This document shows, piece by piece, positions 17,153 through 63,657 of a stretch of 64,000 bases of DNA. Origin of the DNA: Microbacterium sp. Nx66 (GTDB lineage Bacteria > Actinomycetota > Actinomycetes > Actinomycetales > Microbacteriaceae); assembly GCF_904066215.1 (NCBI RefSeq), contig NZ_LR880474.1:372001-436000 (forward strand). Reading direction: 5' to 3'. Under the pieces are notes generated by a model that did not search any database, was not told where the DNA came from, and worked only from the letters and a program-made list of their open reading frames with translations. Made by a program: the position numbers and the translations under genes. How positions within the stretch are numbered: the stretch's first letter is position 1; each line of letters opens with the position of its first letter.

Positions 17153-17962
17153 TCAGTTCCCGTAGAGGGAGACGACCCCGGTGCGGTCGGCGGTGGTCAT
17201 CGAGAGGTCGTCCGAGCTGCCGTTGCACTGCGGGTAGTGCATGATCGACGACGAGTCGTACGGGGTGAGCGGACGCCAGTTGTTGTCCTCGAAGCAGGTG
17301 CCGGCCTCCGGACGGGTGTGCTCGTGGCGGAAGCCGAGCACGTGGCCGAGCTCATGGCCGAGCACGTTCGTCGGCGTCCACGCTCCGGCGCTCCAGATCG
17401 AGTCGTCGATGAGCACGTTCTGCTGCCGGGCCGGCGTGCTGGGGAAGAACGCACGGGCGATGTACTGCGTCGTGGCCACCGGCTCGACGGAGAACACGAC
17501 GGCGTTGTTCCGCGTGGTGCAGTTGGCGTCCGCGCTGCTCACGTACCGGAAGTCGATCTTCGAGGACGCGGACTCCCAGAGCGCGGCGCCGCCCTCCATC
17601 GCCCGGACGACGTCGGCGTGACGGCTGCCGAACTTCGTGCTCACGCAGTAGGTGAGGTTGGCCACCTGCGACGCCGACCACTTGTCGTCGATGTTGTTGA
17701 CCGTGTTGACGATGAGGCCGTCGTTGCGGGTCTCGGGGCCGATCAGCCGGTCGTAGAAGGCGCGCAGCTCCTTCTTTCCGGAGATCACCTCGTCGCCGTT
17801 GACGACGTAGGCGCCGTCCACGTCCCGATAGGTGGACGACGCGAACTCCTGGTACGAGGGCGCGGAGTCGTCGGGCGACGCGGCCGTGGCGGGGATGACC
17901 GCGCTGAGGCTGAGCGCGGCCGCCGCGGTGGCGGCGAGCGCGAGTTTCTTGGTGAATCGCAT
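17153..17962 (-). CDS. secreted zinc metalloprotease (metzincin, M57-like)
   Basis: This is a 269-residue exported protease. A signal peptide covers residues 1-28 (KKLALAATAAAALSLSAV, cleavage near ATA-AS). The zinc site is HELGHVLGFRH (His203, Glu204, His207, His213). The Met-turn SIMHYP (Met241) identifies the metzincin clan, and the sequence around the site resembles family M57. The propeptide lies roughly at residues 30-100. Paired cysteines (106/148 and 223/246) suggest disulfides in the mature enzyme. GAGGATC precedes the ATG. It stands alone, and its substrate is unknown. It may help acquire protein nitrogen or expose glycoproteins, but that is speculation. Confidence 0.85.
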   Translation of the reverse strand: MRFTKKLALAATAAAALSLSAVIPATAASPDDSAPSYQEFASSTYRDVDGAYVVNGDEVISGKKELRAFYDRLIGPETRNDGLIVNTVNNIDDKWSASQVANLTYCVSTKFGSRHADVVRAMEGGAALWESASSKIDFRYVSSADANCTTRNNAVVFSVEPVATTQYIARAFFPSTPARQQNVLIDDSIWSAGAWTPTNVLGHELGHVLGFRHEHTRPEAGTCFEDNNWRPLTPYDSSSIMHYPQCNGSSDDLSMTTADRTGVVSLYGN

Positions 17963-45404: not shown

Positions 45405-46961
45405 TCAGTTCTCGATGCCGATGCTTCCGGGTGCGGAGTCCGCGTGGGTGGCGGACCGACGGCTGAGCAGGATCCCCGTTGCGAGAGCCAGCACCGCCCC
45501 GGTGGCGAGTCCGATCAGACCGCCGGGGTCGCCGCCGGTGGCCGCGAGGCCCGTGGTCGGCGGCGAGGGTGGTGCCGGCGGCGTCGAGGGTGACGGCGGT
45601 TCCGTCGTGGTCGGCGGCGTGCTCGGGGACGGCGGGGAGAGCGTGGCCGGGTTGGTCAGCTCGACAGCCACGACCGACCCTGCGCCGATCGTGAGCTGTG
45701 CTCCTTCGTCCGTCGTGGTCACGCCGTCGCCGCGGAACTGCGGAGTTCCCCACACGACGCCGGGGATGGCATCCGCGGTGTGCTCGGACAGCGTCACGAC
45801 CGTGCCGACGGGAATCCGCCCGACGCTTCGGTCGGTGCCGTCCACGGGCAGCGTGAGGGTACCGGTGACGGGGCCGTCTGCTCCGGGGTACGAGTAGTCG
45901 ACGGCGAATGTCGCGCCGGCCGGGACGAGGGGTGCGGCCGCGCCCGTGATCCGCTTCGCGACCGAGAAGCCGCCGAGACCGTCGCCTTCGCCGTCGCCTC
46001 CGGCCAGGCTCGCGGTGACGGACGCCGTGGTGGTCGTGAAACTCGACCCGGAGACGGTGTTGCTGAACACCTGTCCGGTGTGCGCGTCTGCGGGCAGGCG
46101 CGTCTGGTACGAGACGCGATAGAGGCGGTCAGGCTCCGCCGGCGCGGCGAAGACCACTGTGAACGAGGAGCTGTCAGTGTCCGGGGTGAAGGCATAGTCC
46201 GACCCGGCTGTGAGGGTGCGGAAGTCTGCGGCATCGAACAGGCCGCCGTTCCAGGCGTCCACGGCGACCGAACCGATCGCCACGGTGCTCGGCAACACGC
46301 TCAGCCCCGGGGTCGCGGTGTCGGAGAGGGTCGGGCGCTCGCCGCTGAGCAGGCGTCCCGGCACCCAGATGTACCACTCGATCGTCCCGTCGGCGGTCTG
46401 CACGCCCGACTTGGTCGCGTCCGTCGGGGCCGGCTCGGAGCGCTGCGGACCGACGCCGCCACCGGGGATCTCCACGGTGATCGGGCCTCCGTCACCGGTG
46501 GTGAAGGTCACGGTGTCGTCTTCCGTGGTCTCCTCCGCCTTCATCTGGAAGAACAGGGTGCCGCGGACGTTGTCGTGCGTGAGGACGTAGTCGCTCAGCG
46601 TGCACGTGATGGCGGTCGCCGCGACGGTGCACGTGCCGACGGTGGCGCCGTCCGGGGCTCGCAGCGGGAAGGACGAGGTGACACCGACGAAGCGGGGCGT
46701 CGTCGGAAAGCTGAGCGAGAAAGTGTCTCCGGGCTGCGCGCTGTCGGGGACGGCCCACGTGGCCTCGAGGCGGAGGGTGTCGTACAGGTGCACCTCACCT
46801 GTCGGCTCCACCACCGTCGCCGAGGTGATGGCGTCCCACTCCGCGGCGTGCGCCGTCGGCGGCACGGCGAGCCCGACCAGCGCAAGGAGGGCGATGGTGC
46901 TGCTCACGCCGACAACGCTCCTCCCCTGTCGTCGCTGCGTTCTCCTCTTCTGCGCGCGCAC
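45405..46961 (-). CDS. LAXTG-anchored surface adhesin with Ig-like and DUF5979-type domains
   Basis: This 518-residue wall protein has a signal peptide at about residues 1-39 (TIALLALVGLAVPPTAHA) and two N-terminal adhesin-type beta-sandwich domains (about 40-175 and 180-325, ClfA/SdrG-like pattern). A DUF5979-type domain follows at about 330-430 (FSVAKRITG, VTLSEHTADAIPGV), then a Pro/Ser/Thr spacer. The sorting signal is LAATG at 472-476, a hydrophobic helix and a short tail with SRRS. LAXTG is the recognition motif of class E sortases. GTG start with GAGAGGTGG. The ligand is unknown. No sortase gene lies in the window. Confidence 0.82.
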   Translation of the reverse strand: MRAQKRRTQRRQGRSVVGVSSTIALLALVGLAVPPTAHAAEWDAITSATVVEPTGEVHLYDTLRLEATWAVPDSAQPGDTFSLSFPTTPRFVGVTSSFPLRAPDGATVGTCTVAATAITCTLSDYVLTHDNVRGTLFFQMKAEETTEDDTVTFTTGDGGPITVEIPGGGVGPQRSEPAPTDATKSGVQTADGTIEWYIWVPGRLLSGERPTLSDTATPGLSVLPSTVAIGSVAVDAWNGGLFDAADFRTLTAGSDYAFTPDTDSSSFTVVFAAPAEPDRLYRVSYQTRLPADAHTGQVFSNTVSGSSFTTTTASVTASLAGGDGEGDGLGGFSVAKRITGAAAPLVPAGATFAVDYSYPGADGPVTGTLTLPVDGTDRSVGRIPVGTVVTLSEHTADAIPGVVWGTPQFRGDGVTTTDEGAQLTIGAGSVVAVELTNPATLSPPSPSTPPTTTEPPSPSTPPAPPSPPTTGLAATGGDPGGLIGLATGAVLALATGILLSRRSATHADSAPGSIGIEN

Positions 46962-51202: not shown

Positions 51203-51505
51203 ATGACGCAATCGGTTCTCTCAACGCGTGAAGATGTGGGAGTCGCGCCAGCGAGGGTGCGGAGATGGGCGATGCTCGTGCTCGCACTGGCTTACATCGC
51301 GTTCGCAACGTACTACTATCTCGGACCGGCAAAACCGACAAACGACGTCGTCGTCGTGGGGCTCTCTGTCTTGTGGAGTGCATGGCTCGGCATGCTGTTG
51401 GTGACGCTGATCGCTCGGCCGCGGACACGTGCCGACCGACTGGCAGGCACTGCGGCACCGATGTTCATCGTTGTCGCAGGGGCTTTGAGCTTTCTGGCGT
51501 CGTGA
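51203..51505 (+). CDS. small three-helix membrane protein
   Basis: This is a 100-residue protein with hydrophobic helices at about 24-41 (MLVLALAYIAFATYYYL), 47-68 (VVVGLSVLWSAWLGMLLVTL) and 84-99. I do not recognise the family. GACGGAGGACTC gives a strong ribosome site for the ATG at 51203, against weaker upstream ATGs. Base composition is visibly less GC-rich than the neighbours. The last 41 bases overlap the end of the convergent lacI gene, which is unusual here. The function is unknown. Confidence 0.65.
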   Translation: MTQSVLSTREDVGVAPARVRRWAMLVLALAYIAFATYYYLGPAKPTNDVVVVGLSVLWSAWLGMLLVTLIARPRTRADRLAGTAAPMFIVVAGALSFLAS

Positions 51506-52529
51506 CGCGAGGTGGGGCGGTCGAGGAGCGCACGATGAGCTGCGGGTCGGTGGAGGGCATCTCGCCGACCGGGTCGTGGCCCTCGATCTGGGTGATGAGC
51601 CGCAGGGCGGCAGCGCGGCCCATGGCCTCGAACGGCTGACGGACGGTCGTCAGGGCGGGGGAGGCGTACGCGGCGAGGGCGATGTCGTCGACGCTCACGA
51701 CGGAGATGTCCTCCGGCACGCTGCGCCCGGCCTCGTGCAGGGCGCGGATGAGGCCGAACGCCATCTCGTCGCTGCTGACGAAGACCGCGGTCGCCTCAGG
51801 GATCGCGGCGATGGTGCGCCCGGCCCGGTACCCGGACTCCGGGGTCCAGTCCGCCGGGATCACCGGCGGCGGGACGATGCCGCGCTCGCGGAGCGTCTGC
51901 TCCCAGGCCTCGCTGCGCTGCTGCGTCTCCGTCCAGTAGTCGTCGCCCGAGACGTGCCACACGGTCTCGTGGCCGAGGTCGAGGAGGTGCTCCACGGCGA
52001 GCCGGGCGATCGCGCGCTGGTCGACCGCGAGCGGGGCGTCCTCCTCCAGGGAGGTGCGCTCGCTGCGGGTGGCGGGCGTCCGTTCGGTGCGCGCCCGCAT
52101 CGCCGGTGTGTCCAGGGCGATGGGCACGCCGAGGATGATGCCCTCCGCACCCTGCCGCTCCAGGCGGTCGAAGGCCTCGAGGAAGGCGTCGTCCGAGGCG
52201 TGGTCTGCCACCGCGGCGGTGGTCACGGTGTAGCCGTTCGCCGCCGCGGCCTGTTGGATGCCGACGCCGAGCGCGGCGGAGGAGTAGCGGTCCGTCGAGA
52301 CGACGATCACGCCGAGCACGCGCGTGCGTCCCGATGCGAGCGACGCGGCTGCGGCGTGCACCCGGTAACCGAGTTCCTCGACGGCGGCCAGCACCCGTCG
52401 CGCGGTGTCGGGGCGGACGTTGTCCTGCCCGGACATGACGCGCGAGACGGTCTGCGTGGAGACGCCGGCGAGGCGGGCGACGTCGACCTGGCTGGGGGCG
52501 CGGTCGTCTTTCGGGCGGCGAGGGGACAT
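51465..52529 (-). CDS. LacI-family repressor of the O-glycan locus
   Basis: This 354-residue LacI/GalR regulator has the helix-turn-helix SQVDVARLAGVSTQTVSRVM, the hinge to about residue 70, and a sensor domain with VFVSSDEMAFGLIRALHEAG and VVSVDDIALAAYASPALTTV. The ATG at 52529 is chosen because TACCAT (52541-52536, minus strand) lies exactly six bases upstream, implying a leaderless mRNA; two in-frame ATGs farther upstream would lie in or before that promoter. It is divergent from the GH35 gene. The operator TGTnnGCGCAAACA (four copies in the locus) is its probable target. A galactose- or GalNAc-containing disaccharide is the likely inducer. Confidence 0.88.
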   Translation of the reverse strand: MSPRRPKDDRAPSQVDVARLAGVSTQTVSRVMSGQDNVRPDTARRVLAAVEELGYRVHAAAASLASGRTRVLGVIVVSTDRYSSAALGVGIQQAAAANGYTVTTAAVADHASDDAFLEAFDRLERQGAEGIILGVPIALDTPAMRARTERTPATRSERTSLEEDAPLAVDQRAIARLAVEHLLDLGHETVWHVSGDDYWTETQQRSEAWEQTLRERGIVPPPVIPADWTPESGYRAGRTIAAIPEATAVFVSSDEMAFGLIRALHEAGRSVPEDISVVSVDDIALAAYASPALTTVRQPFEAMGRAAALRLITQIEGHDPVGEMPSTDPQLIVRSSTAPPRVTTPESSKPLRQR

Positions 52530-52586
52530 GCCCCAATGGTAGCGATCCATCGGCGGAAAACCAGGGAGCACGGACCTCGGCGATGC

Positions 52587-52605
52587 GATAATGTGAACGC
52601 AAACA
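52587..52605 (+). promoter_or_regulatory. GH35 promoter -10 with LacI operator
   Basis: GATAAT (52587-52592) is a -10 hexamer. TGTGAACGCAAACA (52592-52605) starts on its last base and covers the start point, an ideal repression site. The same 14-mer pattern recurs before the GH101 gene and the ABC transporter. Confidence 0.82.
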
Positions 52606-52622
52606 ATTCAGCTGGGAGTGCA

Positions 52623-54440
52623 ATGTCCGACCTTCTCGCCGCGGCTTCCGACGGCTCGACCACCGCCGTCGCCGCGCCGGCAGACGCCGCTGCCTCCGGC
52701 GCTCCCGCCCTGTCCTGGCGCGAGGGGGAGATCCTCCGCGACGGTGTGCCCCACCGCATCCTGTCGGGCTCGATCCACTACTTCCGCGTCCACCCCGACC
52801 AGTGGGAGGACCGCCTGCGCCGGCTCGCCGCGATGGGCGCGAACACGGTCGACACCTACGTCGCCTGGAACTTCCACGAGCGGGTCGAGGGGGACATCCG
52901 CTTCGACGGCTGGCGCGACGTCGAGCGCTTCGTGCGGCTGGCCGGCGAGGTCGGCCTCGACGTCTTCCTCCGACCGAGCCCCTACATCTGCGCGGAGTGG
53001 TCCAACGGCGGGCTGCCCTTCTGGCTCACCGGCAGGGTCTCGGCGCTGCGGACGAGCGATCCCGCGTTCCTCGCCGCCGTCGACGCCTGGTACGACGCGC
53101 TGCTCCCGCGGCTCGTGCCCCTGCAGGCGGCCTACGGCGGGCCGATCGTGGCGATCCAGATCGAGAACGAGTACGGATCGTTCGGCAGCGACGCCGCCTA
53201 CCTCGCCCACCTGCGTGACGGGCTCCGGCGACGGGGCATGGTGGAGATGCTGACGACCGCGGACGGGATCACTCCGGACATGATCGCGCACGGGAGCGTG
53301 CCGGGTGCGATGACGACGTTCACGTTCGGCACCGGGGTGCCGGTGGCGGCCTCCCTGCGTCGGCACGGGGAGGCGCTCATGTGCAGCGAGCTCTGGGGCG
53401 GCTGGTTCGACCACTGGGGCGAGCGGCACCACGTGCGTTCGGCGGAGAGCATGGGCGGGACGATCCGGGAGCTCCTCGACGAGGGCGGCTCGGTCAGCCT
53501 CTACATGGCGCACGGGGGCACCAACTTCGGCCTGTGGAACGGTGCGAACCACGACCTCGTGCTGCAGCCCACGGTGACCAGCTACGACTCCGATGCCCCG
53601 ATCGGCGAGGACGGCACGCTCGGGGAGAAGTTCCATGCGCTTCGCGCGCTCTTCGCCCCCTTCCACGCCGACGGACTGCCGCCCGTGCCCGACCAGCCGC
53701 GGCGGCAGTCCGCGACCTCCGCGCCTCTGGAGCGGCGAGCGAGCCTGCTCGACGTGGTCCGGGCGACCCCTGCCGCGGGCGGGCTCTCGCCGCGCCCGCT
53801 GACCTTCGAGCAGCTCGGAGCGGAGGACGGCCTCGTGGCCTACGAGGCCGACGTGTCGTTCCCGGACGAGGCGACACTGACCGTCGACGGCCTGCACGAT
53901 CGTGCGGTCGTCTTCCTCGACGACCGCCGCCTCGGTGTGCTCGAGCGGGACGGCGAGACGTCCCTCGCTCTCCCGGTGGACGGCGGTTCCGGTCGGCTGG
54001 CGCTCGTCGTCGAGAGCCTCGGGCGCATCAACTACGGGCCGTACACCGGCGAGGGCAAGGGCATCATGCGCGGCGTGATGATCGGCCGCCGTCTCGTGAA
54101 CGGCTGGACGCATCGCCTCCTGCCGCAGACGGCACCGGCGGTGGACGCCGCTGCCGTGGGCGGGGTGGACGGCCTCGCCGTCGCCGCGCTGGACGTCGCC
54201 GAACCCCTGGACGCGTGGCTCGCCTTCCCCGGTGGCGGCAAGGGCCTGGTGTGGCTGAACGGATTCCTGCTCGGACGCTACTGGAGCGTGGGCCCGCAGG
54301 AGACGCTCTACGCCCCCGCGCCGTTGTGGCGTACCGGGCGCAACGAGATCGTGGTGCTCGACACCGACGGCCTCGGTGCGACCGTGGAGATCCGGGAGGC
54401 GCCGTCCTTCGGGGAGACCGAGGAGTTCATCGGCTCCTGA
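52623..54440 (+). CDS. GH35 beta-galactosidase (intracellular, BgaC-like)
   Basis: This 605-residue family 35 glycosidase has no signal peptide. The TIM barrel covers about residues 30-350, with the acid/base Glu183 in IQIENEYG and the nucleophile Glu256 in CSELWGGWFDHWG. SGSIHYFRVHPDQWEDRL and the AHGGTNFGLWNG loop are diagnostic. Galactose-binding-like beta domains follow to the C-terminus (LVWLNGFLLGRYWSVGPQ). The sequence resembles pneumococcal BgaC, which prefers terminal Gal-beta-1,3 linkages, so it can plausibly split imported Gal-beta-1,3-GalNAc. GGGAG before the ATG. The promoter carries the locus operator. Confidence 0.93.
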   Translation: MSDLLAAASDGSTTAVAAPADAAASGAPALSWREGEILRDGVPHRILSGSIHYFRVHPDQWEDRLRRLAAMGANTVDTYVAWNFHERVEGDIRFDGWRDVERFVRLAGEVGLDVFLRPSPYICAEWSNGGLPFWLTGRVSALRTSDPAFLAAVDAWYDALLPRLVPLQAAYGGPIVAIQIENEYGSFGSDAAYLAHLRDGLRRRGMVEMLTTADGITPDMIAHGSVPGAMTTFTFGTGVPVAASLRRHGEALMCSELWGGWFDHWGERHHVRSAESMGGTIRELLDEGGSVSLYMAHGGTNFGLWNGANHDLVLQPTVTSYDSDAPIGEDGTLGEKFHALRALFAPFHADGLPPVPDQPRRQSATSAPLERRASLLDVVRATPAAGGLSPRPLTFEQLGAEDGLVAYEADVSFPDEATLTVDGLHDRAVVFLDDRRLGVLERDGETSLALPVDGGSGRLALVVESLGRINYGPYTGEGKGIMRGVMIGRRLVNGWTHRLLPQTAPAVDAAAVGGVDGLAVAALDVAEPLDAWLAFPGGGKGLVWLNGFLLGRYWSVGPQETLYAPAPLWRTGRNEIVVLDTDGLGATVEIREAPSFGETEEFIGS

Positions 54441-54476
54441 GCCGCACTCGGGCCTCGGGTGGTGACCTTCGGCCAA

Positions 54477-54546
54477 TGTTTGCGCATACTTGACGTTCGA
54501 CTCTTGTCTTAAGCTACAAGCTCGCTCTACGGTGATAGCGCAAACA
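54477..54546 (+). promoter_or_regulatory. GH101 promoter flanked by two LacI operators
   Basis: TGTTTGCGCATACT (54477-54490) and TGATAGCGCAAACA (54533-54546) are opposite-facing versions of the locus operator, 56 bases apart centre to centre. TTGACG at 54490-54495 is a good -35; the -10 is less clear (CTACAA near 54514). Such paired sites allow looping repression. Confidence 0.75.
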
Positions 54547-54625
54547 TCGGTTTCGATCGATGATCCATCTGCGACGCACCGGGGCGTCCCTTCCTCCGGC
54601 CGTCGCACCGTTCGAGAGGCAAGAC

Positions 54626-57600
54626 GTGTCGACACCTTCCCGACCGCCGCGCACCGCCGTCGCTGTCAGTTCCCTGCTGGCGACGGCTCTCGCGCTCGGC
54701 GGAGCGCTCCTCCCTGCGACCGCGGCGCAGGCCGCCGATCTCGTCCCCGTCCCGCACGCGGACTACCGGCTGCACGCGGTGTCCAGCGAAGCCGATCCGT
54801 ATCCGGCGCCGCCTTCGCTCGACGGCACGGCTCTCGGCGCCTTCGACGGCGACTACTCGACCCAGTGGACGTCGCGGTACTCGGCCAACGCCCCCTTCCC
54901 GCACTGGATCGCGCTCGATCTGCAGCGGCCCCTCTCGGTGAAGGCGCTGGACTATTCGGTCAAGCGCGGGCAGAGCGTCGCGGCGAAGACCGTCGAGGTG
55001 TACGTCACGGATGACGCCGACGCCGCGCGCACCTCGCCCGCCGACGGGGGATGGGGCGCCGCCGCCGCGGCCGCGACGCTGCACGCGCCCACCGCGAACG
55101 ACGAGAAGCAGCGCATCACGCTGGAGACCGCGAAGGACGGCCGGTACGTCGCCCTCCTCATCATCGACGCGCAGGGCACCACGGGCGGCGGCGCCGGCGA
55201 GATCCAGGTGCTCTCCGACGAGGAGCTCCCGCCGATCGTGACCGAGCCGGAGACGCCGGAGCAGCCGGAGCCCGGGGACACCGTCGAGATCGCCGCGGGC
55301 GGCACCACGGCCACCGTCTCCTCCGCGTTCCCGCAGATCCTCGGCTACCGCGTGGGCGATGAGCGCCTCGGCGGCCAGAAGGGCTCCCCGCGCACCTGGG
55401 CGGTCAACGGCACCGCCTATGCGTCGACCACCACGTCCACGGCGACGGCGACCGGCGTCGACTACGTCTCGGCCCTGACCGGCATCGACGTCACGGTGCG
55501 CAGCAGCATCCGCGTCGCGGCGAATGGCACGGTCGAGTTCGCCGTGACCGGAGTCGACGGCTCCGCTGCGGTGAACACCCTGGCGCTCCCCGACAACGCC
55601 TTCCTCTCCGCGACGGCCGCGGACGGCGCCGTCCTCGACCGCACCGTGATCAGCCCGAACAGCACGACCAACGCCGATGAGCACATCGCTGTGGGGCCCG
55701 CGACCGCCACCGGGACGAAGGGCGCGGCCTTCGCCTTCCTCGGCGACGGGACCCTCGCCGGCAGCGTGATCACTAACGCGACGACGCAGGCCTCCGGCGG
55801 CACCGCCTCATGGAACACCCGGCTCACGACGCGGGTGACCGCGGCCGACGGCCGGACCGCGGAGATCGGCTCGAACACCTGGCTCATCCATCCGACTACC
55901 GCCGTCGACAGCCGGGTGACGACCTACGCCCTTCCTAAGGTCACGGTGCTCCTCACCGCCGATCGCAACGGCGACGAGACCGTGGACTGGCAGGACGCCG
56001 CGATCCGCTACCGGGAGGTCGACGCCCCGCGCCTCGGTGCCGACCGGGTCGCCGACCGCGTGATCAGCCGCATCCCGTTCAACTTCGCCTCGAGCGCCAC
56101 GAACTACTTCGACCTCGTGCTCGACAACACCAAGCGCATCGCGAACCAGACCGACGGCCTCGGACAGTGGGTGCTCAACAAGGGCTTCGGCAGCGAAGGA
56201 CACGACTCCGCGAACACCGACTACGGCGGGAACTACAACGAGCGCGCGGGCGGCCTCGCCGACCTCAACCGTCTCGTCGACGAGGGGGCGAAGCTCAACG
56301 CCGACATGAGCGTGCACGTCAACGCCACCGAGATCTATCCGCAGGCGGACGCGTTCGACGCGGCGATCCTCGACGGCACACCGCCGTACAAGCCCGGCTG
56401 GAACTGGCTCGACCAGTCGTACTACATCGATCAGCAGACCGATCTCGGCACCGGACGCGTGCTCGACCGCTTCCAGCAGCTGCGGGACGAGGTGCCGGGG
56501 CTCAGCGGCGTCTACATCGACGTGTACTACTCCAACGGCTGGGTGGCCGAGGAGCTCGCGGACGAGCTGAACGCCATGGACCTCGAGGTCGCGACCGAGT
56601 GGGGCGACAAGTTCGTCGACAGCACGGTCTGGTCGCACTGGCCGAACGACCTCGCCTACGGCGGCAAGGACAACAAGGGCATCAACTCCACCATGGTGCG
56701 GTTCATCCAGAACGCGCAGGCGGACGTCTGGAACGACGACGCCCTGCTGGGCCAGCAGCGTCTCGTCGATGCCGAGGGCTGGGTGGGCAACCGCAACTGG
56801 GACGGCTTCATCGGCAACATCTGGTCGCAGAGCCTGCCGACGAAGTTCCTGCAGCACTTCGACCTGCAGACGTACGCGGCGGGGGCCGAGGCGACCTTCA
56901 CCGACGACGTGACGGTCCGGATCGACGGTGGTACCCGCGTCATCACGATGGACGGCGCGACCGTCCTGCGGGGCGACTCCTACCTGCTGCCGTGGCAGTC
57001 ACTGGAGTCGAGCGCCGAGTCGGGTTCGCCCGTCGACGCGGACAAGATGTACTTCTTCACGGCCTCCGGCGGTGAGAAGACATTCGGGCTCACGGATGCC
57101 TTCCGCGGCAACACGACCTTCGACGTGTTCGCACTCGGCGACCAGGGGCGCGAGAAGGTGGACACCGTCACCGCGGTCGACGGGAAGCTGACGCTCTCCG
57201 GCGAGAAGGGGGCGGCTTACGTCGTCGTGCCCCAGGGTGGGGCGCAGCGGGCGGCGATCGAGTACCGCGACGCGGGCCTGGCCGATCCCGGGTTCAACTC
57301 GGGGTCGCTGGACGGCTGGAACCCGCGGGGCGACGTGACCATCGAGCGCACGGACCTCGGCGCGGCGAAGAACGCCTCACGGGGCGACAACATCGCGGTG
57401 TTCGGCTCATCCGCGTCCGCGATCTCGCAGACCGTCACCGGCCTCACCCCCGGGAAGCGCTACGCGTTCTCCGCGCAGGTGCAGATCGATCCGACGGCCA
57501 CGCGCGACGTGAGCGTCGCGGTCGACACCGGCGCCGGCGTCGTCAGCCGCACCTGGAACCTCTCGCCGACATACAACTACATGCGCGCCGACTCCAAGGC

Positions 57601-59809
57601 CGGGCAGTACTACCAGCGCGGATCGGTGTCGTTCCTCGCCCCGGCCTCCGGCGAAGTGATCGTCTCGGTCTCGGCGGTCGCCGGTGACGCGGCGGTGCGA
57701 GTCGACAACGCCAGGGTGATGGCGGACACGACGGCGCCGACCGCCGCGGGCACCGTGTACTCGAACGACTTCGAGGGCAACCAGCCCGGGTGGGGCCCGT
57801 TCGTGAAGGGTGACGCCAACGGCATCGACGACCCGCGTACGAGCATCTCGCGTCGGCACGACCCGTACACGAGCAGCGACTGGCGCAACACGGCCAAGCC
57901 GTTCGACACCGGAGCCACCGCGGGCCTCGCGGTGGACTCCACCCTCACCGGTGAGCACTCGCTGATGTCGCACTCCGAGAACTCCGGCGTCGTCTACCGG
58001 ACCGACCCCACGCTCGTCCCGCTGCAGGCCGGGCACACCTATCGCATCGGGTTCGACTACCAGGCCGGAGCGAGCGGAGCGTACCGCTGGCTGACCGGTA
58101 CGGACGCCGTGATCGACGGGGAGATCTCCTCGACGACCCTGCGTCGCACCCCTGTCGTGCAGGCGCTGGAGACCACCGCGTTCCGCGAGGACGTGATCGT
58201 GGGCTGCGGCGACTACACCTGGGTCGGTCTGGAGCGCGTCGGCGGGCCCGACGTCGACTTCGTCCTCGACGATTTCACGGTGACGGACCTCGGCCCGACG
58301 GACGGAGGCACCCCGTGCGCCACCGTCGCCGGCGAGGCCGTGACCCTGAGCCCCGGGGCGCAGACACCCTTCACCACGACCTTCACCAACAGCGAGGACA
58401 TCCTGGCGGAGAACGTCGGCGTGCAGCTCGACCTCCCGGAGGGCTACACCGTCGAGGTCGCGGACGGCTCCTCGAACCTGTTCACGAAGGTCGCCCCCGG
58501 CGAGAGCGTGACGACGGACTGGCTGCTGACGGCACCGGCGTCGGCCGCGGGCTCGCCGGTGAGCATCGGCATCGCGGCCACCTACCTCGTCGACTGCGAC
58601 GTGCGGACCGTGCAGACCGCGCAGGAGGCCGCTGTCGCGTCCCGCGCCCGCATCCCGAACGCGCAGATCACCGCGACCGCGAGCTCCGAGGAGACCGCGG
58701 GTGAGGACGGCACGGCGGCGAACATGCTCGACGGTAACGCCGGGACGTTCTGGCACAGCCGCTGGAGCACTGACGCCGCCGCGTATCCGCACGTGCTGAC
58801 GTTCGACCTCGGTTCCGAGGAGACGGTCGACGGCATCTCCTATCTGCGTCGCGGCGCGAACCAGAACGGCCCCATCAAGGGCTTCCAGGTCGCGGTCTCC
58901 ACCGACGGGCAGACCTTCACCGACGTGGCCGCGGGGGAGTGGAAGAACGTCGCGGAGTGGCAGGACGTCGACTTCGCGGCGACGACCGCGCGATACGTTC
59001 GGGTGACGGCGACCTCGTCGATCTCGGGCACGCCGTTCGCGGCCGTGGCGGAGATGGCGGTGTACGGCACCACCGCCCCGCAGGCGGGGCACGCACCGGA
59101 GGCGCGACCCGAGGACGACCTCGGGGTCTGCGCTCCGGAGACCGATCCTGCGGTGACGCTCGGCGCGGATTCCGTGCGGGCAGGGGAGACGGTCGAGGCC
59201 GTGCTCTCGGGCTTCGCGCCCGACGCCGCCGTCTCGTTCTGGCTGGACGGCGTGCGGCTCGCGGACGCGACGGTCGATGCGCACGGCGCGCTGACCACCC
59301 GGGTCCTCATCCCCGCGGATGCGACGGTCGGGAAGCACCGCTTCCTCGTCAAGGACGCCTCCGGTGCGGAGGTGGCCGGTGCGGCCCTCAAGGTCAAGAA
59401 GGCGAAGCCGGCGAAGGTGCCGGTCCTCACCCCGTCGGTCGGCACCGCGGCGGCCGGAGACTCCCTCCGCGTGCAGCTCCGCGGCTTCGACTCCGAGTCC
59501 GTCGTGCAGCTCTGGCTCCACTCGGAACCGGTCAGGGTGGGCGAGGTGACGATCGCCGCCGACGGCAGTGCGGTCGCGACCGTCACCATCCCGGCGGCCA
59601 CACCCGCGGGCGCCCATGCGCTCGTGGCGACGGACACCGAGGGCGCCGAGCTCGCTCGTGCGGATCTCGCGGTCACCGCCGCGGCGACGGCCGGTGGCGG
59701 GGCGCTGGCCACGACGGGTGCGGAGGGGATGACGTGGCTGGCGGTCACCGTCGGTGCGCTCGCCCTGAGCGCCCTCGGTGCGGGGCTCTGGCGACGGCGA
59801 CGCAGCTGA
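54626..59809 (+). CDS. cell-wall-anchored endo-alpha-N-acetylgalactosaminidase (GH101)
   Basis: This 1,727-residue secreted enzyme has a signal peptide (about 1-35) and an F5/8C-like domain (about 45-175). The GH101 catalytic module (about 220-870) has DWQDAAIRYR, NKGFGSEGHDS, nucleophile Asp632 in YIDVYY and acid/base Glu658 in ATEWG, matching D764/E796 of pneumococcal GH101. Galactose-binding modules, a NEW3-like domain (about 1235-1330), a second F5/8C/CBM32 domain (about 1342-1478) and Ig-like repeats follow. LATTG (1694-1698), a helix and RRRR form a class E sortase signal. It releases Gal-beta-1,3-GalNAc from mucin-type O-glycans. The GTG at 54626 has GAGAGG; an ATG at 54560 would add an atypical 22-residue leader. 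Confidence 0.93.
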   Translation: MSTPSRPPRTAVAVSSLLATALALGGALLPATAAQAADLVPVPHADYRLHAVSSEADPYPAPPSLDGTALGAFDGDYSTQWTSRYSANAPFPHWIALDLQRPLSVKALDYSVKRGQSVAAKTVEVYVTDDADAARTSPADGGWGAAAAAATLHAPTANDEKQRITLETAKDGRYVALLIIDAQGTTGGGAGEIQVLSDEELPPIVTEPETPEQPEPGDTVEIAAGGTTATVSSAFPQILGYRVGDERLGGQKGSPRTWAVNGTAYASTTTSTATATGVDYVSALTGIDVTVRSSIRVAANGTVEFAVTGVDGSAAVNTLALPDNAFLSATAADGAVLDRTVISPNSTTNADEHIAVGPATATGTKGAAFAFLGDGTLAGSVITNATTQASGGTASWNTRLTTRVTAADGRTAEIGSNTWLIHPTTAVDSRVTTYALPKVTVLLTADRNGDETVDWQDAAIRYREVDAPRLGADRVADRVISRIPFNFASSATNYFDLVLDNTKRIANQTDGLGQWVLNKGFGSEGHDSANTDYGGNYNERAGGLADLNRLVDEGAKLNADMSVHVNATEIYPQADAFDAAILDGTPPYKPGWNWLDQSYYIDQQTDLGTGRVLDRFQQLRDEVPGLSGVYIDVYYSNGWVAEELADELNAMDLEVATEWGDKFVDSTVWSHWPNDLAYGGKDNKGINSTMVRFIQNAQADVWNDDALLGQQRLVDAEGWVGNRNWDGFIGNIWSQSLPTKFLQHFDLQTYAAGAEATFTDDVTVRIDGGTRVITMDGATVLRGDSYLLPWQSLESSAESGSPVDADKMYFFTASGGEKTFGLTDAFRGNTTFDVFALGDQGREKVDTVTAVDGKLTLSGEKGAAYVVVPQGGAQRAAIEYRDAGLADPGFNSGSLDGWNPRGDVTIERTDLGAAKNASRGDNIAVFGSSASAISQTVTGLTPGKRYAFSAQVQIDPTATRDVSVAVDTGAGVVSRTWNLSPTYNYMRADSKAGQYYQRGSVSFLAPASGEVIVSVSAVAGDAAVRVDNARVMADTTAPTAAGTVYSNDFEGNQPGWGPFVKGDANGIDDPRTSISRRHDPYTSSDWRNTAKPFDTGATAGLAVDSTLTGEHSLMSHSENSGVVYRTDPTLVPLQAGHTYRIGFDYQAGASGAYRWLTGTDAVIDGEISSTTLRRTPVVQALETTAFREDVIVGCGDYTWVGLERVGGPDVDFVLDDFTVTDLGPTDGGTPCATVAGEAVTLSPGAQTPFTTTFTNSEDILAENVGVQLDLPEGYTVEVADGSSNLFTKVAPGESVTTDWLLTAPASAAGSPVSIGIAATYLVDCDVRTVQTAQEAAVASRARIPNAQITATASSEETAGEDGTAANMLDGNAGTFWHSRWSTDAAAYPHVLTFDLGSEETVDGISYLRRGANQNGPIKGFQVAVSTDGQTFTDVAAGEWKNVAEWQDVDFAATTARYVRVTATSSISGTPFAAVAEMAVYGTTAPQAGHAPEARPEDDLGVCAPETDPAVTLGADSVRAGETVEAVLSGFAPDAAVSFWLDGVRLADATVDAHGALTTRVLIPADATVGKHRFLVKDASGAEVAGAALKVKKAKPAKVPVLTPSVGTAAAGDSLRVQLRGFDSESVVQLWLHSEPVRVGEVTIAADGSAVATVTIPAATPAGAHALVATDTEGAELARADLAVTAAATAGGGALATTGAEGMTWLAVTVGALALSALGAGLWRRRRS

Positions 59810-59827
59810 GTACCTCTGCTGCACACG

Positions 59828-59855
59828 AGAGGCCCGGGGTTCGCCCCGGGCCTCT
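59828..59855 (+). terminator. strong terminator after the GH101 gene
   Basis: AGAGGCCCGGGG (59828-59839) pairs perfectly with 59844-59855 around a TTCG tetraloop, followed by TCT. It lies 18 bases after the stop. Confidence 0.92.
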
Positions 59856-59964
59856 TCTGCACGCGGCGGGGAGTTTGCCGGTTCTCCACGGGTTGCGGTT
59901 CCGAGGCCGGAGAGCGTGCCTCCGGTCCCCGATACTCGAGGGGTAGCCACGAAAGGAGCCGCAC

Positions 59965-60095
59965 ATGCCGAACGTACTCATCCGCGATCTCGACCCCGGC
60001 GTGCATTCCGTGCTCACCGCGCGAGCGCAGGAGCGAGGACGCTCACCCCGGAGAGCATCGTCGCCGCGGTGCACGAGGGGTGCGCCGGGCGGTGA
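59965..60095 (+). pseudogene. VapB-type (FitA-like) antitoxin remnant
   Basis: An intact start with GAAAGGAGCC encodes MPNVLIRDLDPGVHSVLTAR..ERGRS, the ribbon-helix-helix N-terminus of FitA/VapB antitoxins. The frame then loses sense, but the +1-shifted frame resumes as LTPESIVAAVHEGCAGR and stops at 60093-60095. So the middle of the gene has been lost with a frameshift. The stop still overlaps the GTG of the toxin remnant (60092), as in intact vapBC operons. Confidence 0.8.
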
Positions 60096-60263
60096 TCGTC
60101 GTCGACACCGCGATCGTCGTCGACCTGGTCTGCACCGGAATGTCGACCCGAGTCCTGCAGGCGCGGATGGAGGACGAGTTCCTGCTGCCCCCTCCTCACG
60201 CACGACCGGAGGCTCGCGCGGGCGGCCTCCGGTCTGTGCGCGGTCGAGGTGCCTAGCCCTTGA
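60092..60263 (+). pseudogene. VapC-type PIN-domain toxin remnant
   Basis: A GTG at 60092 begins VIVVDTAIVVDLVC, the first strand of a PIN ribonuclease domain with its catalytic Asp. From 60195, in another frame, LTHDRRLARAASGLCAVEVPSP matches the PIN C-terminus and ends at TGA 60261-60263. About two thirds of the domain, including the central acidic residues, is missing. The toxin cannot be active. Its end overlaps the stop of the convergent permease gene. Confidence 0.82.
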
Positions 60264-61173
60264 CGGCGCCGGCGGCGAGACCGGAGCGCCAGTACTTCTG
60301 CAGCGTGAAGAACAGGGCGATGAGCGGGATCACGCCGAGCAGCGCCCCGAGCATGACGGCGCCCTTGTCGGGGGAGAAGTAGCTCATCATGCCGTAGAGG
60401 CCGAGCGTGACCGGCTTGAGGTCGGGGCTGGAGATCATCATGAGCGGGAGGAGGAAGTTGTTCCACGTGGCCACGAAGATGAACAGGAAGATCGTCACCA
60501 TCGCGGGGCCGAGCAGCCGCAGCACGATCGTGAAGAAGATCCGGGCCTCACCGGCGCCGTCGATGCGGGCGGCCTCCAGCAGCTCCGTCGGCACCGACGA
60601 CTGCGCGTAGACCATGCCGAGGAAGACGCCGAACGGCGAGACCGCCGAGGGGATGATGATCGCCCACACGGTGTTCGTGAGGCCGAGCGCCTGGAACTCG
60701 ATGTACAGCGGCACCGTGAGTAGGGCGACGGGCAGGAGGAGCCCCGCCATGATGATGCCGACCGCGAGCTTCTTCCCGGGGAAGGCGAACTTGGCGATCG
60801 CGTAGCCGGCCATCACGGCGAACAGCGTGCCGATGATCCCGGCGCTGAGCGAGTAGAACAGGGAGTTGCCGACCCAGCGCCAGAACAGCCCCTGGGTCCA
60901 GCCCATGAGGCTGTCGTAGTTGGCGGCGAGGTTCGGCTCGGCGAACCAGAATCCGAACGTCGAGGTGAGGTCGGTGTTGTTCTTCGTCGAGGCCACTACG
61001 AGCCAGAACACCGGCACGAGGAAGTACAGCGTCGCGACGACGAGGGCGATGATGCCGAACGTGCGGGCCGCGGGACCCGGGGCGATGGACGGAGGAGGGG
61101 CGTCCGCCGCCTGCGGCCTACGAGAGCGCCGCTTCGTCGGCGGGGTCACGGTGACGAGTCGTGTGGTGGTCAT
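60253..61173 (-). CDS. sugar ABC transporter permease (MalG type), O-glycan locus
   Basis: This 306-residue inner-membrane permease has a 40-residue basic N-terminal tail and six helices. The EAA loop is LLEAARIDGAGEARIFF, and the GLAAGAVKG C-terminus is typical of MalG-type subunits. It overlaps the other permease by four bases (61170-61173). It forms the channel for the disaccharide released by the GH101 enzyme. No ATPase gene is present; a shared MsiK-type ATPase is expected. The VapC remnant abuts its 3' end. Confidence 0.92.
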   Translation of the reverse strand: MTTTRLVTVTPPTKRRSRRPQAADAPPPSIAPGPAARTFGIIALVVATLYFLVPVFWLVVASTKNNTDLTSTFGFWFAEPNLAANYDSLMGWTQGLFWRWVGNSLFYSLSAGIIGTLFAVMAGYAIAKFAFPGKKLAVGIIMAGLLLPVALLTVPLYIEFQALGLTNTVWAIIIPSAVSPFGVFLGMVYAQSSVPTELLEAARIDGAGEARIFFTIVLRLLGPAMVTIFLFIFVATWNNFLLPLMMISSPDLKPVTLGLYGMMSYFSPDKGAVMLGALLGVIPLIALFFTLQKYWRSGLAAGAVKG

Positions 61174-62144
61174 GCGTCGCCCTTCCGCCGCTGGAGCAGT
61201 GCGTACACGATCGCGAGCACGCCCGCGATCCCGGCCATGAGCAGCGAGTACGCCGACGCCGGACCGCTGCCCGACGGCGACAGCTCGCCCATCATCGTGT
61301 TGTAGGTGAGCATCATCGGCGTGAAGTCCTTGCCCATCCAGGAGTTCGCGGCCTCCAGGATGACCGGCTCGTTGAACAGCTGGATGGTGCCGATGATCGA
61401 CAGCAGCACCGCCAGCAGCGCGGCACCGCGCACGAGCGGCACCTTGATGCGGGTCGCGATCTGGAATCCCGTCGCACCGTCCAGACGGGCGGCCTCGTAG
61501 AGGTCGCGGGGGATGGCCTGCAGGGCGCTGAGGAAGATGAGCATGTTGTAGCCCGTGTAGGTCCACGTCGTCATGTTCGCCATCGAGAAGAGGATCGTCT
61601 GCGGCGACATGAGGTCGGTCCCCTCCGGCAGATACGGCAGGAAGGGCGACACCTCGGGCGTGTAGAGGTAGAGCCACATCATCGCCGCGATGATGCCGGG
61701 GATCGCGTACGGGAGGAAGAAGGCGAGGCGGAACAGGGCGGGGCGGCGCACGATGAACGAGTCCAGCAGCAGAGCCAGGGCGAGGGCCGCGATGATCATC
61801 ACCGGGATCTGGAACGCCGCGTAGAGCACGACCCGTCCCATGCCGGCCCAGAAGGCGCCGTCGGTCGCCGCCGCCGCGAAGTTGTCGAGGCCGACGAAGG
61901 TGTCGACGAGCTCGCCCCCGCCGTACAGGCCGCCGCCGGCGGGCACCTGCGCGAAGAACGCCGACCGGACCGACACGATGATGGGGATGAGGAAGACGAC
62001 GGCGAACAGCAGCGCGAACGGCGCCATGAACAGCCACCCGGTCAGTCCCTCTCTTCGGATCCGCGATCGACGGGTCGACGGGGCGACGGGACGGCGCGCG
62101 GGAGGGAGCGGCGCCGCTGCCCTCGTCTCGGTCACTGTGGCCAT
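61170..62144 (-). CDS. sugar ABC transporter permease (MalF type), O-glycan locus
   Basis: This 324-residue permease starts with a basic tail (PSTRRSRIRREGLTGWLFM), then six helices and an EAA loop DLYEAARLDGATGFQ. The large first outer loop (VPAGGGLYGGGELVDTFVGL) is usual for the MalF-like subunit. It is separated from the solute-binding gene by an 89-base gap with an 18-bp hairpin, and it overlaps the second permease gene. Together with the lipoprotein it forms a carbohydrate importer of the CUT1 class. Confidence 0.92.
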   Translation of the reverse strand: MATVTETRAAAPLPPARRPVAPSTRRSRIRREGLTGWLFMAPFALLFAVVFLIPIIVSVRSAFFAQVPAGGGLYGGGELVDTFVGLDNFAAAATDGAFWAGMGRVVLYAAFQIPVMIIAALALALLLDSFIVRRPALFRLAFFLPYAIPGIIAAMMWLYLYTPEVSPFLPYLPEGTDLMSPQTILFSMANMTTWTYTGYNMLIFLSALQAIPRDLYEAARLDGATGFQIATRIKVPLVRGAALLAVLLSIIGTIQLFNEPVILEAANSWMGKDFTPMMLTYNTMMGELSPSGSGPASAYSLLMAGIAGVLAIVYALLQRRKGDA

Positions 62145-62165
62145 GATGTGCCTCTCGCTCTCACG

Positions 62166-62207
62166 ACGACGGCGGAGTGCACGATCGCCCGTGCACTCCG
62201 CCGTCGT
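62166..62207. terminator. 18-bp perfect hairpin between binding-protein and permease genes
   Basis: ACGACGGCGGAGTGCACG (62166-62183) pairs perfectly with 62190-62207 around a 6-base loop. Inside an operon it would act as an attenuator or mRNA 3'-end protector, giving more binding protein than permease. Confidence 0.8.
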
Positions 62208-62233
62208 TCATCCGATGATGCCGTCCGGTCCGG

Positions 62234-63547
62234 TCATTCCGCGACCGGGAGGCCGAGGTCCTTCAGCGACGCCACGGCCGTGTCCTGCGCCGTCGTGAAG
62301 ATGTCCGCGACCGTGGCGGTGCCGGCGGCAGCCGCGGCGGCCGTCTCGTTCATGTTCGCCAGGGTCGAAAAGCCGGGGGCGTACGGGAAGTCGGGGTTGA
62401 GGTTCTCGGTGGCCGTGCCGAGCTCGGCCAGCACGTCCTGGCCGCCGAACTGACGCAGCATCTTCTCCGGCGTCTCCACCTCGCCCTTCGCCGCGACGAC
62501 GAGGCCCTGGGAAGCGAGGTCGTCGACCTGCGTGTTGAACCAGTCGTTGAACTCCATGGCGGCCGCGGGGTTCTCGCAGCCCTTCATGACCGAGACGCCG
62601 GACCCGCCGTCGGGGCCGCTCATCGCCCCGGCGCCGAAGTCGGGGAGCTGGGCGACGCGCCACTGCCCCTCGGCCGGAGTGCCGTCCAGGGAGTCGAGGA
62701 GGAAGCCGGCCTCCCAGGCCGCGCCGACGTGGCCGATGAGGCTGCCGTTGTTCAGCGCCGCCGTGAACCCTTCACCCCAGCGCTCGGTCGCGAGTGTCTG
62801 CTTGCCGTCGAGCAGGCCCTGCCAGAAGGCGGCGACCCGCTCGGAGCCCGCACCCTCGGCATCCACCTTCCACTCCTCGCCCTCCGTGGAGAACCAGGTG
62901 TCACCGGCGGCGGCAGCCTGTCCGGAGAGCCAGTTCTGCGCCTCGTCCGGTGTGAACGCCGTGACGAACTTGCCGGCGGCGGCGGCCGTGGCGGAGGCGG
63001 CGGTCAGGTCGTCGAGCGTCGCCGGGGCGTCGAGGCCGAGCGCCTCGAACTCGGCGGTGTTGTAGAAGTAGACGAGGGGTCCGGTGTCCTGCGGGAGGCC
63101 CACGATGGCGTCGCCGACCCGCATGCCGCTGAACGCTCCGGCCGAGTAGTGGTCCTCGTACTTCTCGGCCTCCGTGGCGACGTCCTCCAGCAGACCCTTC
63201 ACGTAGAGCTGGGGCACCTCGGAGTATCCGGTCTGCGCGAGGCACGGGCCGTTCCCGGCCTTGATGTCGGTCTCGAGCTTGAGGATCATGTCGCTGGCCT
63301 TGCCGTCGAACTTCGTGGCCTTGACCTGGATGTCGGGGTGCTCCTCGTTCCAGCGGTCGACGATCTCGGCGACCGTGGTCATGCCCTCGCCGTCGGGGAG
63401 GCGGTGCATGTACTCGATGGTGACGGGCTCTCCGCCGGCGTCGCCGCCCCCGGAGGCGGCCGGGGCGCAGGCCGCGAGTCCGAACGCCGACACCGCGCCG
63501 AGGGCGACGACCGCGGCGACGCGGGGGGTGCGTGAGGTGGGTGCCAT
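62234..63547 (-). CDS. sugar-binding lipoprotein of the O-glycan ABC transporter
   Basis: This 437-residue extracellular solute-binding protein has a signal peptide ending LAACAP (Cys27). The type 1 sugar-binding fold starts VTIEYMHRLPDGEGMTTVAEI, with aromatic residues that usually stack on sugars in GDTWFSTEGEEW and VGAAWEAGFLLD. It is first in the leftward operon; GAGGAGAACAGC precedes the ATG. The locus operator lies 97 bases upstream. Context with GH101 and GH35 suggests Gal-beta-1,3-GalNAc as ligand, but the fold alone does not show this. Confidence 0.9.
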   Translation of the reverse strand: MAPTSRTPRVAAVVALGAVSAFGLAACAPAASGGGDAGGEPVTIEYMHRLPDGEGMTTVAEIVDRWNEEHPDIQVKATKFDGKASDMILKLETDIKAGNGPCLAQTGYSEVPQLYVKGLLEDVATEAEKYEDHYSAGAFSGMRVGDAIVGLPQDTGPLVYFYNTAEFEALGLDAPATLDDLTAASATAAAAGKFVTAFTPDEAQNWLSGQAAAAGDTWFSTEGEEWKVDAEGAGSERVAAFWQGLLDGKQTLATERWGEGFTAALNNGSLIGHVGAAWEAGFLLDSLDGTPAEGQWRVAQLPDFGAGAMSGPDGGSGVSVMKGCENPAAAMEFNDWFNTQVDDLASQGLVVAAKGEVETPEKMLRQFGGQDVLAELGTATENLNPDFPYAPGFSTLANMNETAAAAAAGTATVADIFTTAQDTAVASLKDLGLPVAE

Positions 63548-63643
63548 GCTGTTCTCCTCTTTGAGGTCATGTTCCTGCGAATCGCCCGAAGCCGGGACGC
63601 GGCGAGGGTGCGCCGTCGATCACATGCACATCAAATCAGAAAA

Positions 63644-63657
63644 TGTTTGCGCTCACA
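63644..63657 (-). promoter_or_regulatory. LacI operator before the ABC transporter operon
   Basis: TGTTTGCGCTCACA, in reverse TGTGAGCGCAAACA, is the most symmetrical of the four locus operators. It lies 97 bases upstream of the binding-protein start. In the 290-base gap 63548-63837 I see only this site and the stem-loop at 63795-63827. Confidence 0.78.

Follow-up and report, generated by a model that had tools for sequence, protein, structure and literature searches.

In bifidobacteria, the pathway for lacto-N-biose and galacto-N-biose (Gal-β-1,3-GalNAc; GalNAc, N-acetylgalactosamine) combines the glycoside hydrolase family 101 (GH101) enzyme EngBF, the GL-BP/LnbABC importer, a GH112 phosphorylase and NahK (PMC5583593, PMC8106489; all papers are cited here from excerpts), and the GL-BP-type ATP-binding cassette (ABC) importer is known in combination with the GH112 phosphorylase (PMC5583593, PMC8106489, PMC12345172). 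In Lactobacillus casei, import proceeds through a phosphotransferase system (PTS), the GH35 enzyme GnbG hydrolyzes the disaccharide and cleaves its unphosphorylated forms poorly (PMC6109692, PMC5583593), and a GalNAc-6-phosphate deacetylase and a galactosamine-6-phosphate deaminase act after GH35 (PMC6109692). The seven-gene pneumococcal aga operon contains bgaC, the PTS genes gadVWEF, agaS and galM, with a GntR-family AgaR as regulator (PMC5018945). Here we analyze a locus of Microbacterium sp. Nx66 that encodes a LacI-family repressor, a GH35 β-galactosidase, a GH101 endo-α-N-acetylgalactosaminidase and a GL-BP-type importer. It lies in a stretch of 64,000 nucleotides (the window; G000:C1:372001-436000); the genome comprises 3.46 Mb on two contigs. 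This locus very probably serves the LacI-controlled use of core-1 O-glycans by hydrolysis, with uptake through the GL-BP-type system. Its genes and predicted sites, numbered within the window, are as follows.

51465..52529, minus strand: LacI-family repressor (Pfam LacI and Peripla_BP_3; start chosen by inspection)
52592..52605, minus strand: predicted LacI operator TGTTTGCGTTCACA, between lacI and GH35 (1 mismatch)
52623..54440, plus strand: intracellular GH35 β-galactosidase, BgaC-like, predicted β-1,3 (Pfam, 4mad, E183/E256, N-terminus)
54477..54490, plus strand: degenerate operator-like site upstream of GH101 (3 mismatches)
54533..54546, minus strand: operator-like site upstream of GH101 (2 mismatches)
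54560..59809, plus strand: secreted, wall-anchored GH101 endo-α-N-acetylgalactosaminidase, predicted (Pfam, PDB matches, D654/E680)
60253..61173, minus strand: CUT1 ABC permease 2 (Pfam BPD_transp_1)
61170..62144, minus strand: CUT1 ABC permease 1 (Pfam BPD_transp_1)
62234..63547, minus strand: lipoprotein solute-binding protein (SBP), GL-BP-type (PDB 2z8d; R49 conserved)
63644..63657, plus strand: predicted LacI operator TGTTTGCGCTCACA, upstream of the importer operon (SBP) (0 mismatches)

The sequence-only reading had placed LacI, GH35, GH101 and a CUT1 importer together between 51465 and 63657. The open reading frames and Pfam domains bear this out, with six genes verified in the interval, which closes with an operator-like site whose last position is 63657. 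The lacI open reading frame covers 51465-52571 on the minus strand, with a likely ATG start near 52529. GH35 and GH101 are encoded on the plus strand, divergent from lacI, and the two CUT1 permeases and the lipoprotein SBP on the minus strand.

The GH101 protein (1749 amino acids) matches PF12905 with 354 bits, as well as PF18080 and PF17451, all above the curated cut-offs, and carries an F5/8C domain at residues 1372-1499. Its PDB matches include 3ecq (395 bits), which we take to be SpGH101, and EngBF, 2zxq (376 bits). D654 and E680 align to the catalytic-residue positions of 3ecq, presumably D764 and E796 of SpGH101, and a WNW motif is retained; we take D654 and E680 to be the catalytic pair. 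The C-terminus, with LATTG followed by a hydrophobic stretch and RRRRS, is compatible with wall anchoring, in line with the earlier description of a wall-anchored GH101 with both catalytic residues. The GH35 protein (605 amino acids; Pfam, 345 bits) has its best PDB match in 4mad (485 bits), an entry named only as a β-galactosidase, which we take to be the β-1,3-galactosidase BgaC of Bacillus circulans. This best match suggests β-1,3 specificity. Both catalytic Glu residues are kept in the alignment to 4mad, as E183 and E256, presumably the catalytic pair of the present enzyme, and simple hydropathy revealed no visible hydrophobic N-terminal stretch or signal peptide.

A match to the SBP at E ≤ 1e-60 was found in 43 of 366 genomes of the genus, and the profile search for GH112 (PF09508) gave no match in our genome or in any other of these 43, of which 41 are at least 90% complete and two (G153 and G236) fall below that level; a positive-control genome scored 559 bits. 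A scan of 396 genomes of the phylum also gave no GH112 match, but yielded no positive control either and is not used as evidence. The proposal that GH35 stands in for GH112 is therefore supported at the level of sequence, by the 0 of 43 and by the presence of a BgaC-like GH35 without a visible signal peptide in its place.

For the SBP, the match to GL-BP (2z8d) reaches 446 bits over residues 37-437; the runner-up among other SBPs scores 96 bits. Arg49 of GL-BP has been linked to the N-acetylhexosamine at the second sugar (PMC8106489); the Arg in the MHRLPD motif of our SBP is conserved in the alignment to 2z8d and would be its counterpart. The affinity of GL-BP for galacto-N-biose is 8.5-fold tighter than for lacto-N-biose (PMC12345172). 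These features support the prediction of a galacto-N-biose-type importer. By Pfam, the locus importer is of the CUT1 ABC type and not a PTS, a statement about the locus, as no search for a PTS elsewhere in the genome was made; likewise, an ATPase for the importer is not among the locus genes, and no search for one elsewhere was made.

The transcription units of GH35/lacI, GH101 and SBP are each preceded by one or more sites that match or resemble the operator motif TGTTTGCGYTCACA. In the whole genome, seven sites occur at up to 2 mismatches, compared with one for the reversed control, and the two sites at 0-1 mismatch both belong to the lacI-GH35-importer locus. Elsewhere in the genome, the matches within 2 mismatches at 57813, 591651, 2421319 and 2672237 have no hexosamine gene nearby by eye; the one at 2421319 precedes another transporter gene, next to a different LacI. 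We surveyed the operator in 63 loci (1.21 Mb), consisting of part of the window, 42 SBP-bearing loci and 20 SBP-negative loci. A LacI orthologue is encoded in 50 of the 63, and in every one of these 50 the stretch separating lacI from GH35 contains the operator with no more than 1 mismatch. Among the 13 loci without LacI in view, 11 have no operator at up to 2 mismatches, and two (L073 and L078, cut by the contig or the fetched stretch) keep the SBP site only. Matches of the same quality (0-1 mismatch) mark 40 of the 43 SBP promoters; the three exceptions (L098-L100) lack LacI. Stray sites at up to 2 mismatches were seen inside lacI in L080, L081 and L092 and near the SBP site in L090. These results support a motif shared by the units of the locus. 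In L069, an extra perfect operator is located past the importer at 17416, flanked on both sides by the 3' ends of convergent genes; one of the two encodes a xylose-isomerase-like TIM barrel.

The SBP of the window matched 14 loci in named genomes, 10 of them in Microbacterium, with a top identity of 98%, and the same gene order is kept over dozens of species. LacI, GH35 (at least 64% identity) and the importer occur together in 37 of 42 fetched relatives. In 22 of the 37, GH101 lies between GH35 and the permeases (with a partial match only in L072), in one (L091) a divergent GH101 lies beyond the SBP, and 14 are without GH101 there. The remaining five relatives comprise L073 and L078, which are cut off, and L098-L100, in which this LacI is missing and the GH35 is less similar (43-48%). 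GH101 itself was detected in 46 of the 366 genomes, namely in 30 of the 43 with the SBP compared with 16 of the 323 without it. Twenty SBP-negative regions were picked from genomes with a GH35 orthologue, defined by a score of at least 800 bits (scores fall from 806 to 601). A divergent GH101 (39-41%) stands beside LacI-GH35 in eight of them and a close GH101 in two, two have LacI-GH35 only, and eight have GH35 without LacI. In these eight (L118-L121 and L124-L127), the orthologues are 70-75% identical to our GH35, and the fetched stretches contain no LacI, operator, GH101 or GL-BP-type importer; some congeners deploy the GH35 orthologue in another setting. A weakly similar CUT1 transporter adjoins the GH35 orthologue in L118. 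Among the relatives with a divergent GH101, GH95 and F5/8C α-L-fucosidases are encoded near LacI-GH35 in L110 (1062-4394 and 11546-15166) and L116 (2904-6635), and in L116 a 2-mismatch operator precedes the fucosidase by about 100 bases.

The genes presumed to act on GalNAc are located outside the locus. At C1:120.0-124.6 kb, about 300 kb from the importer locus, the genome clusters a SIS-domain enzyme, a ROK kinase, a PfkB kinase, a class II aldolase and a regulator of the DeoR family. Among the NCBIfam models, AgaR fits this regulator best, at 180 bits (under the cut-off of 260). A separate CUT1 transporter, divergently oriented, adjoins this cluster at C1:116580-119945 (2580-5945 in L105) and may import a free amino sugar. 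More distant are nagA, at C1:974757 with a GH20 gene beside it, and galK, at C1:3009542 (291.6 bits, above cut-off). The description of the locus as self-contained thus does not stand, given this distance and the lack of an ATPase gene among the locus genes. Both nagA (TIGR00221) matches of the genome fall outside the window, in agreement with the stated lack of a deacetylase there; for the kinase half of that statement, the window kinases were not searched systematically. All families of the aga type (kinase, deacetylase, SIS, PfkB, aldolase and AgaR-like regulator) are present in the genome. As no GalNAc-specific model scores above its cut-off, the GalNAc roles rest on the gene combination and its context.

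That context is strong in the relatives. In L094-L100, 7 of the 42 fetched loci, the importer has homologues of the SIS, ROK, PfkB and aldolase genes as neighbors; nagA joins them in L095, L096 and L097, and L097 has the order nagA-SBP-perm1-perm2-GH35-LacI-SIS-ROK-PfkB-aldolase. In L100, the NCBIfam match to nagA scores 198 bits (cut-off, 225.65). Counted at E ≤ 1e-50 in the 366 genomes, the SIS gene occurs in 42 of 43 genomes with the SBP compared with 103 of 323 without, in 45 of 46 with GH101 compared with 100 of 320 without, and in 73 of 75 with the GH35 orthologue compared with 72 of 291 others; the exceptions are G122 and, for the GH35 orthologue, also G235.

From these data we infer the substrates and activities of all components, the DNA binding and inducer of LacI, and the existence of an ATPase. 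The secreted, wall-anchored GH101 would free galacto-N-biose from glycoproteins, and the GL-BP-type lipoprotein and the two permeases, served by an ATPase encoded elsewhere, would take it up. Cytoplasmic GH35 would then split the disaccharide into galactose, which would enter metabolism via GalK, and GalNAc, which would be phosphorylated by the ROK kinase and deacetylated by NagA. The SIS-domain enzyme would deaminate and isomerize the product to tagatose-6-phosphate, and the PfkB kinase and class II aldolase of C1:120-124 kb would handle the steps onward.

Compared with the described systems, Microbacterium resembles bifidobacteria in having GH101 and a GL-BP-like ABC importer, but has a GH35 hydrolase in place of a GH112 match, and its GalNAc would pass through 6-phosphate and tagatose steps instead of the 1-phosphate route of bifidobacteria (no search for NahK was made). 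It shares with the L. casei gnb operon (PTS-Gnb, GnbG, GnbE/GnbF) an intracellular GH35 for hydrolysis of the disaccharide. Unlike the PTS, which phosphorylates its substrate on import, the ABC importer should leave the sugar unphosphorylated, and a separate GalNAc kinase would therefore be needed. The pneumococcal aga operon likewise combines importer and isomerase genes with a GH35 (BgaC), but its importer is a PTS, its AgaR is of the GntR family, and no GL-BP-type ABC importer is among its seven genes. In the Propionibacterium metagenome-assembled genome that served as the positive control for GH112, a single contig (L026) encodes GH112 (561 bits) next to a GL-BP-type importer and GH101; the 15.5 kb examined showed no GH35. 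With adjoining importer and GH101 homologues as in Microbacterium, but GH112 where the latter has GH35, L026 is the phosphorolytic counterpart of the locus.

We consider it likely that Microbacterium has a third route for the core-1 disaccharide, with GL-BP-type ABC import in unphosphorylated form, GH35 hydrolysis and an ATP-dependent ROK GalNAc kinase leading to the tagatose route, encoded in one cluster in some species and with two divergent GH101 types tied to LacI-GH35. The new element would be the union of GL-BP-type ABC import, GH35 and the proposed ATP-dependent GalNAc kinase, since GH35 hydrolysis is already known with PTS import. The locus thereby pairs a GL-BP-type importer with a hydrolase in Microbacterium and provides a complete and testable gene set and operator for the use of animal glycoproteins; the replacement of a phosphorylase by a hydrolase next to one and the same importer type also makes it a clear case for studying pathway mosaicism and energy cost.

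Several observations weigh against this scheme. The four window sites at up to 3 mismatches compare with 2.4 expected, and 25 of 100 shuffles reach four; as their number is not unusual, the evidence for the operator is its placement and conservation. In our own genome, the GalNAc cluster has no operator at up to 2 mismatches, and it comes with a regulator and an ABC transporter of its own. Its SIS enzyme is closer to GlmS/GlmD models than to AgaS, PfkB matches the generic 1-PFK model (235 bits, above cut-off) better than tagatose-6-phosphate kinase (120 bits, below), and the aldolase scores 219 bits as fructose-bisphosphate aldolase and 206 bits as GatY, both below cut-off. The models single out no function for the ROK kinase, and nagA reaches 216 bits for a cut-off of 225.65. 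The Fisher p-values for co-occurrence with the SIS gene (6e-18 to 3.4e-33) ignore shared ancestry, and G122 (94% complete) has the SBP and GH101 with no SIS match. Finally, no GH101 match was found in 13 of the 43 importer-bearing genomes, so that the core of importer and GH35 may also serve lacto-N-biose or other β-1,3-galactosides.

An alternative is that the importer and GH35 act chiefly on such another β-1,3-galactoside (lacto-N-biose or plant-type Gal-β-1,3-Gal), with GH101 as a local add-on. This would account for the 13 genomes and for L064, which retains the importer and GH35 without GH101, and GL-BP does bind lacto-N-biose, albeit 8.5-fold more weakly (PMC12345172). We regard it as unlikely, given the enrichment of GH101 in SBP-bearing genomes and the divergent GH101 beside LacI-GH35 in eight more loci. 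The SIS, ROK, PfkB and aldolase genes that adjoin the importer in seven relatives, together with the AgaR-like regulator of our own cluster, also count against lacto-N-biose, because the N-acetylglucosamine released from it would need no tagatose steps. That an unrecognized phosphorylase splits the imported disaccharide while GH35 has another job is very improbable: linkage specificity differs among GH35 enzymes, and in 8 of the 20 SBP-negative loci the orthologue occurs with neither LacI nor operator and with no GH101 or GL-BP-type importer in view, but the operator separates lacI from GH35 in all 50 LacI-bearing loci, none of the 43 importer-bearing genomes of the genus matches GH112, and the importer type is paired in L026 with GH112, with no GH35 found on the 15.5 kb examined.

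Our literature search, which left most subscription papers outside its reach, found no report on Microbacterium and galacto-N-biose. A survey records GH101 for Actinomyces and, with variable occurrence, for Streptomyces, and mentions Microbacterium once in the excerpts, among Actinobacteria with mucin-related hydrolases (PMC9120202). The view that core-1 use is unexpected in an environmental actinobacterium is therefore too strong, given also GH101 in 46 genomes of the genus and the GH35 route known with PTS import.

The segment between GH101 and the permease (59965-60250) appears to be the remnant of a FitA-like antitoxin/PIN-toxin pair. Its FitA-like RHH match scores 25.4 bits, under the cut-off of 27; at the corresponding place in L059, longer frames pass the cut-off for FitA-like RHH and PIN, and L061 and L064 have frames resembling these. 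Elsewhere in the window, the minus-strand gene at 45408-46961 encodes a probable secreted protein of the cell surface; it has Big_8 and DUF5979 domains and, by eye, an LAATGG-like sorting signal.

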